From: Paludibacteraceae bacterium
GTDB taxonomy: Bacteria; Bacteroidota; Bacteroidia; Bacteroidales; Paludibacteraceae
Direction of reading: 5' to 3'
NCBI GenBank assembly: GCA_017550335.1
Contig: JAFZPM010000049.1
Span: forward strand, 62,001-126,000
DNA: 64,000 bases
The position numbers were made by a program, and so were the translations under genes. This document shows positions 32,330 to 39,577 of this stretch, piece by piece; the stretch's first letter is position 1, and every line of letters begins with the position of its first letter. The notes beneath the pieces were generated by a model. The model saw only the letters and a list, made by a program, of their open reading frames with translations, was not told where the DNA came from and did not search any database.

Positions 32330-33568
32330 TTAATAGCCTTTTTCCCGATTGTTTTCAAGTTCATCCAACAATGATTGAGGAATATTCTCCTTTCCTTCCC
32401 TCAAGATACACTGATGGCAAGCCATTTCCTTCGAATACATACGTCCGATACAGTAGTTGGAATGGTCGCAGGAGACACGCGCATGCTCATCCGCCTGCAT
32501 ATCATTCACGAAATGGGGGTTATTGAGCAGAGCCCTCGCCATGGCCACGAAATCAAAGCCATCGTCCAGCACCTCATCAATCTTATCCTTGGAAACCAGA
32601 CCGCCCACATAGCACAGAGGCATCTTCAGCGCCTGGCGGAACTTCAGCGCATCCTCCAGGAAATAAGCCTCCTTGAATTTCACCGGAGGAACCAACTTCG
32701 ACCCGCACATGCGGACCAGAAGAGGCAATAATCTCTCGTTCATGTAATACGACATCGTGCGGAGCGGCATCGCACCACGCATGACGTTCATCGGCGCACT
32801 GCTGACGAATCCGCTACTCAACACCAAGCAATGGACGCCGGAGCGCTCCAAGGTCTTCGCCACCTCCAAGCTCTCGTCCAACTCCATGCCATGGCGGCAA
32901 CAATCGCGCATATTCATCTTCACCAGCACGGCCATGTCACCCTTGGCGGCCTTCAGCACCTCGTCCACCGACATCTTCATGAAGCGCATCCTGTTCTCCA
33001 GCGAGCCACCGAACTCATCCTTCCTATGGTTCGTGGAAGGGGAGAGGAACTGGCTGATCAAGTATCCATGACCCGCATGGAGCTCCACCGCATCAAAGCC
33101 AGCCTCACGGGCCAATTCGACGCCATGTCCAAACAATTTGGCGCTCTTCTCGATCTCATCCTTGCGCATTCCCCGCACGATGGTCGGAGAATAGATATTG
33201 AAGCCAGTCGAGGCGGAAATAGGGGTGCATCCACAAATCTTCTTATGGGACATGTTTCCGCAATGTCCGATCTGGATGCTGACGGCGGCACCTTCACGGT
33301 GGATATCATCCGTTATTTTCCGCAACGCAGGGATATTTTCCTCCTTCAGCCACAACTGATGAGGGAAGGAGAGTCCGCTCTGCTCGACAGCGGAATAGGC
33401 GAGGGTAGTCATGCCCACACCCCCAGCGGCGACAGAGACATGATAATCATGCAACATCTGGGACGGTGCATTACCCGGACACATACCCTCGAAGGCGGCG
33501 GAACGTATTGTCCGATTTCTTAATGTCAAAGGCCCGATCCTACCGGGCGAGAACAACAATGAAGCCAT
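32330..33568 (-). CDS. Old-yellow-enzyme family NADH:flavin oxidoreductase with four-cysteine tail
   Basis: The 412-residue protein is an OYE-type TIM barrel: an N-terminal GPLTLRNRTIRSAAF strand (about 12), the active-site IQIGHCGN strand (about 100) and the HAGHGYLISQFLSPSTN block (about 168-184) seen in 2,4-dienoyl-CoA reductase and BaiCD-like enzymes. Cys367, Cys373, Cys384 and Cys387 (C-x5-C-x10-C-x2-C) lie at the end, an arrangement different from the usual CxxC-CxxxC cluster of longer family members. The second flavodoxin-like half of BaiCD or FadH is absent. It lies 24 nt downstream of a 5-alpha-reductase homologue, which points to enone or steroid-like substrates. The true substrate is unknown. 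Confidence 0.85.
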   Translation of the reverse strand: MASLLFSPGRIGPLTLRNRTIRSAAFEGMCPGNAPSQMLHDYHVSVAAGGVGMTTLAYSAVEQSGLSFPHQLWLKEENIPALRKITDDIHREGAAVSIQIGHCGNMSHKKICGCTPISASTGFNIYSPTIVRGMRKDEIEKSAKLFGHGVELAREAGFDAVELHAGHGYLISQFLSPSTNHRKDEFGGSLENRMRFMKMSVDEVLKAAKGDMAVLVKMNMRDCCRHGMELDESLEVAKTLERSGVHCLVLSSGFVSSAPMNVMRGAMPLRTMSYYMNERLLPLLVRMCGSKLVPPVKFKEAYFLEDALKFRQALKMPLCYVGGLVSKDKIDEVLDDGFDFVAMARALLNNPHFVNDMQADEHARVSCDHSNYCIGRMYSKEMACHQCILREGKENIPQSLLDELENNREKGY

Positions 33569-33592
33569 ACCAATTCGTTTTTTCCGTGTTTT

Positions 33593-34366
33593 TCAGTAAA
33601 GAAATGGAATAATACGCTTCAGATGAAGGTTTTCCATTTCAGGAAACATGATCCTATATTTTTTATAAATCGTATTCGCACGAGGCGTCAAATTCGCAAA
33701 AGTCCAGAGAGCGAAAACCGCCCCCGCCCAGGACCAAGTCATGATGGCGAAACCGATCCATTCCATCAGTTCACCCAGATAATTGGCGGAAGTGACATAG
33801 TTGAACATTCCACCCTTGGGCAAATAATGGTTCGGATCTCCCGGCTTGCGAAGATGACGGACAATGTGGTCAGAATGCAGGTTGACCCCCATTCCCACGA
33901 GGAAGATCAACACCCCCACGATGAACTGAGGAGTGGTCAGCCAATCGACGGAATAGCGTCCTTCGGGCGATACGTAGAAAATCCAGCCTCCCTGCATAAG
34001 TCCATTCAACGTGTTGAAAATAATGCCCATAGCCATAATCATTATCGGCATACGGCTCTTTCCCCGCATCAGGGAAGGGAATATGAAAGATCGCTGGAAA
34101 TAATGCGACTGGAACAACAAGAAAAAGATGAAAGGGACCAACTCCCAGGTGCGGTCAGAGAACCACCAGCATGCCAGCATGACAAAAAATACCGGAGACT
34201 CCATCAAGACCCATCCAACCTTGTTATTCACAGAAACGCCCCATTTCTTATCGAACATAATGCCATACCCCGCATCCACAAAATAGAGGGACACGAACAC
34301 GATCACAGCCACTATAGCCATAATCACAAGAAACACATTGAAATAGGACAACGTGAACAAATACAT
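33593..34366 (-). CDS. Steroid 5-alpha-reductase (3-oxo-5-alpha-steroid 4-dehydrogenase) family membrane protein
   Basis: The 257 residues hold about six to seven membrane segments. From memory of the SRD5A family, its cofactor and catalytic blocks are intact: a Glu in VLMESPVFF (Glu56) equivalent to human SRD5A2 Glu57, HYFQRSFIFP (about 88-97) around the second catalytic Tyr, VNLHSDHIVRHLRKPG (161-176), the block YLPKGGMFNYVTSANYLGE (181-199) and the C-terminal RIIPFLY. Family members reduce delta-4 double bonds of 3-oxo steroids with NADPH. It is the first gene of a likely operon with the OYE-type reductase 24 nt downstream. Bacterial homologues act on bile acids in some Bacteroidota. The exact substrate here is inferred, not shown. 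Confidence 0.85.
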   Translation of the reverse strand: MYLFTLSYFNVFLVIMAIVAVIVFVSLYFVDAGYGIMFDKKWGVSVNNKVGWVLMESPVFFVMLACWWFSDRTWELVPFIFFLLFQSHYFQRSFIFPSLMRGKSRMPIMIMAMGIIFNTLNGLMQGGWIFYVSPEGRYSVDWLTTPQFIVGVLIFLVGMGVNLHSDHIVRHLRKPGDPNHYLPKGGMFNYVTSANYLGELMEWIGFAIMTWSWAGAVFALWTFANLTPRANTIYKKYRIMFPEMENLHLKRIIPFLY

Positions 34367-34385: not shown

Positions 34386-34417
34386 CTTGCGAATATAATA
34401 TTTATTCATTACATTTG
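34386..34417 (+). promoter_or_regulatory. Promoter of the structured RNA candidate
   Basis: CTTG (34386-34389), 20 nt, then TACATTTG (34410-34417), an exact -7 box. On the other strand a -7-like TATATTCG (34390-34397) could serve the 5-alpha-reductase gene, so the two promoters would overlap. Confidence 0.6.
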
Positions 34418-34423
34418 CACTAT

Positions 34424-34580
34424 GTTGAATATTTTTTATTTTTACCTTTAACCTATGAACGGGACGAGAGTCCCCTAAACTAAAAAGTTGTCTGACTGTC
34501 GTCAGACGTCGTCCGAGACGGTTTGCTTTTAGTCGAAGACGAAAAAAAATGCCAAAGGATTCCTTCCTTTGGCATTTTTA
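34424..34580 (+). ncRNA. Candidate structured small RNA, about 157 nt
   Basis: The interval begins just after a consensus promoter and ends in a strong terminator. It contains two perfect hairpins: GGGAC-GAGA-GTCCC (34461-34474) and GTCTGAC-TGTC-GTCAGAC (34490-34507). A GC-rich segment (34507-34540) with further pairing potential lies before the terminator hairpin. The only open frames are fewer than ten codons, so a coding role is unlikely. It does not match a class I recognise: not tmRNA, not RNase P, and too small and differently shaped for 4.5S. It could be a regulatory sRNA, including one acting on the neighbouring reductase operon. Confidence 0.5.
34549..34580. terminator. Bidirectional terminator
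   Basis: ATGCCAAAGGA (34549-34559) pairs over 11 bp with TCCTTTGGCAT (34565-34575). There are eight A before and five T after, so it can end both the plus-strand RNA and the minus-strand GLUG protein gene. Confidence 0.85.
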
Positions 34581-34623: not shown

Positions 34624-36960
34624 CTATCTGATCAGCACGAGCTTTCCACCGATAGCATAAACACCCTTCGGCAAACCACGCACTTCCGTCAGGCCTTCCT
34701 CATAACGGATAGGCTTAACCACCTGTCCCAAACGATTGAACAGACACGTGACGCCAGCGTCCACCGACTTGATATACAACACGTCGCCCATCGAATAGAC
34801 TTGGAAGGAGAGCGCATCCTCGGAATCGGCCACAGAATCATAAACCGACGAGCTCTCCGCCGAATTAAACTTAGGGTATCCGGAGTATTCCCCAGCGACC
34901 CATTTCCTATACACGATAGTATCCTGTGTGCCATTCAGGGAATCCACGCCATGGTTCAACACATCGATGAACTTCGTCGATTTGATGAACTCCGTCGTGG
35001 TGGCGATCACGGAATCGTTCACCTGTCCCCAATAGCCCTCGTCAGAATAGAACAACGTGCTGTCATAGTAGCAATTATCGAGCGTCTCGATCAGGAATTC
35101 GAAGACGAACGGGCTTCTCAAGCCAGACTCCTCGGATGTGTTTGTCACATGGCAAGATGCATAGCAGTTGACGAATCGGCAGTTGTCCTGCTCCACCGCC
35201 ACAAATCCGCTGGCCTTACCATCGCCACGCACATCACCCAGATTGAAGCAGTTTAGGATATCGCAATCGATGGCGACTCCGATGAAGCCAGCCGCACCAT
35301 CAGCGGACGTGCCGGTAACCGACGCCTCACCGCCACAATTCGCGAAAGTGGAAGACTCCGCATATGCGCAGATCGATCCCGCATAGTATCCCGTAAAGGA
35401 AGAGGACTTCACGGTCAGGTTCTCTATCAGCGCATCCTTCACACTGGAGAACAGTCCTACGAACTCTTGCTCCCTCGTCACATTAAGATCATAAATCGAG
35501 TAATTCGCCCCATCGAAGACACCACTGAAGGATGTGCCGCAGCAGAGGTCATGCTGGCCAATCGGAACCCAATCACCGTTAGCGGAGACATCGCTCATGT
35601 CTATGTCGTCCGTCAGACGTCCCTTAATGGTAGTGGCCCCGCCATTCACCGCATCACGGAACAAGCCGAGATCCTTCGCGTTGCCGATCAAATAGAACCC
35701 ATCGTTATCCTTCTTGAGGAAGTTTTGCTTCAGGACTTTCGTCACCAGGACCACCGTATCGCCCGTCACACCCTTGCCATCGAACGAATTGGCGAATTGG
35801 TAAGAGAAAACGGACTCGCTGCAGATCGGCAATGTCATGGCATCAGAATAGACATCCATACCGAAATAATCGCCCCTATACGTGACGATAAAGACCTTCT
35901 TGGGACGTAAGACAACATCCTCGAACCTCGGATAATCATCCACACCAGAGACCTGCATCCACGTCTTGAAATAGATGGTTCCCCCGAAGAGCGTCTCCTC
36001 ACGTGAAGGCGCTGACTCGACAAAATTGTTCAGGAGCCTCAGCACCGAACCATTCTTAAACGCCGTTGCGGCATTGATTTTAAGGCCAGACTCGAAATCG
36101 TTCTCGTTAGCCATATCCTCCAATCCGAAACAGTTCGAGATGGTTGTTTTTCCCGAGCTTCGCACCTGTCCCGTCATATGACCCGTTGATAATCCGCTGA
36201 TCTTGTTAAAGTTATAACAGTTATAGAAAGAACCCACATCAAAGGTGCCCACGATGCCACCTGCGATGCCCTCGTATATCACATCATTTTCCGCCGTGAT
36301 ATTCGTGACCGCCTTCACGCGTCCCAAGTTATAGCAATTGATGATGGTGACACTTTTCGTATAACCGGCGATGCCACCCACATTGTTCGCACCGACTATC
36401 GTACCGCTATTGCTACAATTGGCGATATTGGCGGAGACCATATCCGCACCGGAGGTTATGCCTCCCACGTTACTCAGTCCGATGACGGTTCCATCAAAAT
36501 GGCAGTTGTCTATCAAGCACTTACGAGCAGAACCATAACCGCTCGACACAATACCCGCACAATTGTCCGATCCTTTCACATATGCGTTCTTGACGATCAG
36601 ATCACGGATCACATCCGCACTGAAGAAGAGTCCCTGCGCGTTATTCTTCGTGAAGATATAAAGGTTAGAGATCGTATGGTTCGCCCCATCGAACCGGATG
36701 GAAAGACGTTTCCTATTGATCGGCACCCACGTCACTTTCCGCCCGTTGATGTCGCCACACACCGTGCTCATGTCGATGTCGCTCGCCAACCGACCATCCA
36801 TCGCCGTACCGCCATTGACGGCATCCCTGTACTCAACCAGATCATCCACACTCTTGATCAGATAGTACCCCTCCGCATCCTGCTCCAAAGCCGCTAAAGA
36901 GGCTTGGCAAGACAAGAGCGCAATGATAAAAGCACCTAAATGCCTGAATTTCTTACCCAT
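34624..36960 (-). CDS. Exported GLUG-repeat protein with T9SS type A-like tail
   Basis: The protein of about 778 residues starts with a signal peptide (MGKKFRHLGAFIIALLSCQA). The ORF extends upstream, but the earlier Met codons fall in the promoter region or leave an implausibly long n-region. Two homologous halves begin with GYYLIKSVDDL and GFYLIGNAKDL, each with a YRDAVNGG or FRDAVNGG block. GLUG-type repeats (for example NVGGIAGYTKS and VGGITSG) are predicted to stack as a beta-helix. The end KGVYAIGGKLVLIR is a T9SS-type sorting tail. Such proteins are usually surface adhesins or binding proteins; the target is unknown. Confidence 0.78.
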   Translation of the reverse strand: MGKKFRHLGAFIIALLSCQASLAALEQDAEGYYLIKSVDDLVEYRDAVNGGTAMDGRLASDIDMSTVCGDINGRKVTWVPINRKRLSIRFDGANHTISNLYIFTKNNAQGLFFSADVIRDLIVKNAYVKGSDNCAGIVSSGYGSARKCLIDNCHFDGTVIGLSNVGGITSGADMVSANIANCSNSGTIVGANNVGGIAGYTKSVTIINCYNLGRVKAVTNITAENDVIYEGIAGGIVGTFDVGSFYNCYNFNKISGLSTGHMTGQVRSSGKTTISNCFGLEDMANENDFESGLKINAATAFKNGSVLRLLNNFVESAPSREETLFGGTIYFKTWMQVSGVDDYPRFEDVVLRPKKVFIVTYRGDYFGMDVYSDAMTLPICSESVFSYQFANSFDGKGVTGDTVVLVTKVLKQNFLKKDNDGFYLIGNAKDLGLFRDAVNGGATTIKGRLTDDIDMSDVSANGDWVPIGQHDLCCGTSFSGVFDGANYSIYDLNVTREQEFVGLFSSVKDALIENLTVKSSSFTGYYAGSICAYAESSTFANCGGEASVTGTSADGAAGFIGVAIDCDILNCFNLGDVRGDGKASGFVAVEQDNCRFVNCYASCHVTNTSEESGLRSPFVFEFLIETLDNCYYDSTLFYSDEGYWGQVNDSVIATTTEFIKSTKFIDVLNHGVDSLNGTQDTIVYRKWVAGEYSGYPKFNSAESSSVYDSVADSEDALSFQVYSMGDVLYIKSVDAGVTCLFNRLGQVVKPIRYEEGLTEVRGLPKGVYAIGGKLVLIR

Positions 36961-36996
36961 ATGCATCATATAAAAATATACCATGTATTTAGTATT

Positions 36997-37029
36997 CAAA
37001 TATAACAAAAAATATTGAATATATTCAAA
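36997..37029 (-). promoter_or_regulatory. Promoter of the GLUG-repeat protein
   Basis: On the minus strand the sequence reads TTTG-N21-TATATTTG, with both boxes exact. This supports the start at 36960 rather than the ORF opening at 37059. Confidence 0.65.
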
Positions 37030-37084
37030 AAGGATGAACGAAAGAAAATGCTCACGCACAAACTTTCTGTAGGAAAAGCTTTAA

Positions 37085-39337: not shown

Positions 39338-39347
39338 CCACTTCTTG

Positions 39348-39422
39348 TGGTCCCACTAGGATTCGAACCTAGGACCCTCTGCTTGTAAGGCAGATGCTCT
39401 AAACCAACTGAGCTATAAGACC
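39348..39422 (-). tRNA. tRNA-Val (anticodon TAC), copy 2
   Basis: A 75-nt cloverleaf with acceptor stem GGTCTTA pairing with TGGGACC, TTCGAATC in the T loop and anticodon TAC at 39385-39387. The CCA end is not encoded; the discriminator base is A. It is identical to the copy at 39503-39577 and downstream of it in transcription. Confidence 0.95.
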
Positions 39423-39502
39423 TTTAAACTCTCTCAACGGACACCGAAGCGGCTTTTCCAACCATCGGAACGCTCTCCGACGCCCCCGACATCCTTTTTT
39501 TG

Positions 39503-39577
39503 TGGTCCCACTAGGATTCGAACCTAGGACCCTCTGCTTGTAAGGCAGATGCTCTAAACCAACTGAGCTATAAGACC
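39503..39577 (-). tRNA. tRNA-Val (anticodon TAC), copy 1
   Basis: Identical 75-nt gene to the neighbour at 39348-39422, separated by 80 nt. It is the first of the pair behind the promoter at 39638-39668. CCA is not encoded. Confidence 0.95.

Follow-up and report, generated by a model that had tools for sequence, protein, structure and literature searches.

The question raised by this locus is whether a short interval between two protein-coding genes houses an RNA gene of its own and, if so, whether that RNA serves the operon beside it or acts elsewhere. The interval lies in a 64,000-nucleotide stretch of DNA from a Paludibacteraceae bacterium (GenBank assembly GCA_017550335.1, contig JAFZPM010000049.1, positions 62,001 to 126,000), which we refer to as the window. 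It contains no usable genes and is bordered by a divergent gene for a protein of the 3-oxo-5-alpha-steroid 4-dehydrogenase family (PF02544; 33593-34366, minus strand), here called the reductase and regarded as context outside the RNA unit, and by a convergent gene for an 811-aa protein (34624-37059, minus strand). An initial annotation had proposed a structured small RNA of no recognised family at this position, and implied a function connected with the reductase operon or with the response to bile or steroids. To our knowledge, few small RNA families have been described for the Bacteroidota outside Bacteroides.

Organisation of the locus

The interval holds a promoter (34386-34417), three hairpins and a bidirectional terminator with a 15-bp stem (34545-34579). 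Bacteroidota promoters are of the type TTTG-N19-21-TAnnTTTG, and the one identified here on the plus strand is made up of a -33 box CTTG (34386-34389), a 20-nt spacer and the -7 box TACATTTG (34410-34417), bearing out the promoter originally claimed; a sigma-70 scan gave no site there, the box type being that of the Bacteroidota. By automatic scan, 17 of the 19 homologs have a TAnnTTTG box upstream, and in the remaining two (L055 and L082) TATATTTG is seen by eye just within the matched stretch. The RNA is predicted to run from about 34424 to 34580, with a start placed 5-7 nt past the -7 box and an end at the T-run of the terminator, which agrees with the length of about 157 nt given before. 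Within its promoter lies TATATTCG (34390-34397, minus strand), the probable -7 box of the divergent reductase on our reading of the sequence, which abuts the -33 box of the RNA and is consistent with the suggested overlap of the two promoters.

In the alignment of homologs the 5' region shows a conserved box, ACCUUUAACCUAUGA, at 34444-34458 of the plus strand. In other subgroups it takes the form AACCUUAGCCYGUGA and is there the predicted 5' end of the RNA: in eight homologs (L074, L057, L065, L048, L067, L063, L046 and L059) the conserved box AACCUUAGCC starts 5-7 nt past TAnnTTTG, at the expected transcription start. In the subgroup to which the window belongs it lies 27-53 nt downstream of TAnnTTTG, behind an AU-rich leader.

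At the other end, the intrinsic terminator has T-runs on both strands, as had been proposed, and also serves the convergent gene; it is present in all 19 homologs, with stem sequences that differ among subgroups. The statement that the interval lacks usable open reading frames holds as well, since none exceeds 39 aa save a mechanical frame of 235 aa that starts within the terminator. Coding was also considered as a source of the conservation and rejected: the spacing between the invariant elements varies by lengths that are not multiples of three, and this, together with the covariation described below, means that coding does not explain the structure.

Several features of the surroundings may be recorded here. 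The reductase belongs to a two-gene set (32330-34366, minus strand), the other product being an OYE-type FMN oxidoreductase (PF00724), and reductase homologs occur in 28 of 81 related genomes, among them members of other families of the order. The 811-aa protein looks repetitive and has no matches to Pfam or NCBIfam; its gene's place beside the RNA is taken by other genes in L062 and in L074, L057 and L065. A tandem pair of tRNA-Val (TAC) genes with equal scores lies further along the window (39347-39422 and 39502-39577, minus strand).

Conserved structure of the RNA

Two perfect hairpins had been claimed and both are found: hairpin 1, GGGAC-GAGA-GUCCC (34461-34474), which is variable or absent in other genera, and hairpin 2, GUCUGAC-UGUC-GUCAGAC (34490-34507), in which the CUGUYG formed by the loop and its closing pair is invariant. 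A third hairpin (34509-34542), missing from the initial annotation, has the strongest covariation; its stem covaries throughout and its loop carries an invariant GUUUGC at 34521-34526. Folding energy alone is not decisive, as the z-score of -5.9 for the full RNA against shuffled sequences is owed mostly to the terminator, the body without it reaching only -1.67, with 12 of 200 shuffles equally good.

It is the comparative evidence that shows the RNA to be real. Among 18 distinct sequences, 10 of the 15 pairs in the two-hairpin core are altered on both sides and 95.9% of cells pair, and the covariation score is 0.555 as against 0.166 +/- 0.023 when shuffled and at most 0.151 with slid partners, all in an alignment that was fitted to the model and is thus biased toward the structure. 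Compensatory changes were already visible by eye in the first alignment, which was made by sequence alone. In hairpin 3 all eight pairs show changes on both sides. The excess of G-U cells (12) over A-C cells (3) favours the plus strand as the RNA. Conservation of sequence is distributed differently, in that the loops and the 5' box are kept where stems vary: CUGUYG, bar its C/U position, and GUUUGC never change, and hairpin 2 is largely conserved in sequence on both arms of its stem while the stem of hairpin 3 changes freely. Read from sequence, the locus thus has a promoter of its own, a terminator of its own and a conserved structure unexplained by coding, the marks of an independent small RNA gene.

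Distribution of the family

A DNA search recovered relatives within the genus. The first covariance model gave 18 family members in 300 genomes, and the second found the RNA in 19 of 358 genomes of the family and in 4 of its 33 genera, as a single copy each time. One of these members (in G100) scores marginally (E 0.017), yet a -7 box and a terminator are present and both of its hairpins show matching changes. Beyond the family, covariance searches gave nothing other than the RNA's own genome among 198 genomes of the order and 296 of the phylum, and a third model, run on 393 order genomes, gave only two marginal matches (L133 and L134, E 0.015 and 0.039), which look coding by eye, have no promoter and were judged to be chance. 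Samples of more than 40 genomes were run with stricter filters, so that weak relatives could be missed in them.

A pattern scan of all genomes returned Bacteroidales records, mostly with Paludibacteraceae in the title and a rumen or horse-gut origin, together with scattered matches elsewhere; those outside the Bacteroidales fail the model, the only borderline score being that of L047 (E 0.08). A phage origin was discarded, there being no phage matches and a single pattern match on a viral contig that fails the model. We regard it as very likely, from these comparisons, that this is a real, conserved and transcribed structured RNA. On the same evidence, the predicted RNA constitutes a family confined to part of the Paludibacteraceae, in uncultured gut and rumen Bacteroidota.

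Genomic context and the reductase

In 11 genomes of the same genus the RNA and the reductase gene are divergently arranged, but the two come apart in both directions. In one genome (G015) the reductase has been lost along with its partner gene and the RNA is kept, now beside a patatin gene; two (G005 and G012) have the reductase with no detectable RNA, and two from other genera (G018 and G020) have the RNA with no reductase homolog. Upstream of the reductase gene in G005 and G012 (L091 and L092) there is AT-rich sequence with stretches alike between the two, which may be a repeat or a mobile element. Elsewhere the RNA adjoins what are presumably mscS, era, his or rimO genes, names that we read off the sequences and not from family scans, and these neighbours change between genera. 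The separation from the reductase and the change of neighbours together make the RNA an independent unit, and the latter also means that it is not the leader of any one gene.

The initial proposal thus stands in one part and lacks support in another. That there is a structured small RNA belonging to no described family is upheld by the conservation, the covariation, the promoter and terminator of its own and the lack of an Rfam match at the gathering threshold. A function tied to the reductase operon, or to bile or steroid responses, is not supported, given the separation of RNA and reductase, the unrelated genes, mscS for example, beside the copies in other genera, and the ordinary degree of complementarity to the reductase start. 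Local transcriptional interference, through the promoter region common to both in this genus, is possible. The case is a warning against reading function from neighbours, as the conspicuous position next to a steroid reductase has not been kept in relatives.

Functional interpretation

Our analysis gives some preference to a regulatory small RNA of about 157 nt that is transcribed independently, acts in trans and is restricted to part of the Paludibacteraceae; whether its main mode is base pairing in trans we put at an even chance. The RNA would be made from the TAnnTTTG promoter and end at the terminator, and would act elsewhere than at its own locus, the contacts with target mRNAs, near their starts, being made by the 5' box, by the loops GUUUGC and CUGUYG, or by all of these; hairpin 2 may also be held by an RNA-binding protein. 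The trans-acting reading draws on analogy with GibS and FopS, which act through 5' seeds on the start regions of target mRNAs (PMC7366714, PMC11697453). A limited search of nine genomes for sites complementary to the 5' box found no common start-region target, the box giving 11 non-self sites and the control pattern 7, and so lent no support to pairing of the box with start codons through its wobble-tolerant complement TCATRGGT-RRRGGT. Pairing with the starts of the reductase or mscS mRNAs was likewise set aside, as duplex energies, by a crude method, were at the level of shuffled sequences.

These negative target results fit an RNA that binds protein, as a sponge, a scaffold or part of a ribonucleoprotein, in which CUGUYG of hairpin 2 and GUUUGC of hairpin 3 are what is recognised and pairing is secondary. 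The invariant loops speak for this, as does hairpin 2, whose sequence is kept on both arms while the stem of hairpin 3 is free to change, and because such conservation suits binding as well as pairing, protein binding stays a serious rival, if an unlikely one; against it, a conserved unpaired 5' box would be more typical of a pairing seed. A bolder form, to which we give less credence still, is that the invariant loops form a protein recognition site and the RNA is one partner in a regulatory ribonucleoprotein particular to its lineage within the Bacteroidota, for which few global RNA-binding proteins are known to us. Local regulation of the divergent reductase operon, whether by interference between overlapping promoters or by action on the reductase mRNA, has in its favour the divergent arrangement in 11 genomes of the genus and the abutting boxes, but the genomes in which either partner occurs alone and a duplex energy no better than shuffles make it improbable.

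More improbable again is a cis-acting leader, serving as attenuator or riboswitch for a gene downstream such as mscS. In five loci (L074, L057, L065, L048 and L063) mscS does lie downstream on the same strand, but in the window, and in most genomes of its genus, the gene that follows is encoded on the other strand, a convergent arrangement that in the window largely refutes the idea; the downstream gene also differs between genera, and a terminator stands between it and the RNA in all. Least credible of all is a diverged housekeeping RNA that Rfam does not recognise. The models for 6S RNA (RF00013) and small SRP RNA (RF00169) have no match at the locus or anywhere in the genome, which leaves room for such a candidate; RF00169, however, also omits a Bacteroides control genome, so its silence here means little, no SRP loop of the GGAA type is seen, and the RNA goes undetected in most of the family (19 of 358 genomes). 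Bacteroidales-1 (RF01693), moreover, is a separate gene of the same genome (C49:44542-44718) and not the RNA locus. In this genome (G000) the SRP and 6S models are thus silent and Bacteroidales-1 is matched; the current RF00169 model seems to overlook the SRP RNA of this lineage.

With its alignment, promoter, start, end and two invariant loops, the family offers a probe that is ready for use, and rumen and hindgut genomes can be annotated with its covariance model.

Comparison with known bacterial RNAs

The annotation's failure to recognise an RNA family is matched by a scan of the RNA against Rfam 15, in which no family reached the gathering threshold, housekeeping RNAs included; permissive scans gave weak sub-threshold matches that we take as chance. 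A full-text literature search found no paper mentioning both Paludibacteraceae and sRNA. As far as Rfam 15 and the portion of the literature searched extend, the family is apparently undescribed. The covariance models found no member outside the Paludibacteraceae in the order samples.

Three known systems bear comparison. Bacteroidales-1 is likewise a structured stand-alone RNA of the Bacteroidales, but its model has no match at our locus and it is found in genomes both with and without the new RNA. GibS of Bacteroides thetaiotaomicron is a stand-alone intergenic RNA of 145 nt with a conserved 5' part, hairpins and an intrinsic terminator (PMC7366714), and in all these respects, including its similar length, it resembles the RNA presented here. 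It is, however, described as largely unstructured and as having a non-canonical promoter (PM2) (PMC7366714), and by that description the new RNA is set apart by its covarying hairpins, invariant loops and TAnnTTTG promoter. The FopS RNAs of Bacteroides are about 65-70 nt long and multicopy, with 14 in B. thetaiotaomicron (PMC11697453); like the new RNA, they have a Bacteroidota promoter of canonical form and a 5' region that is conserved, whereas the new RNA, judged against their description, differs in being about 157 nt long and present as a single copy.
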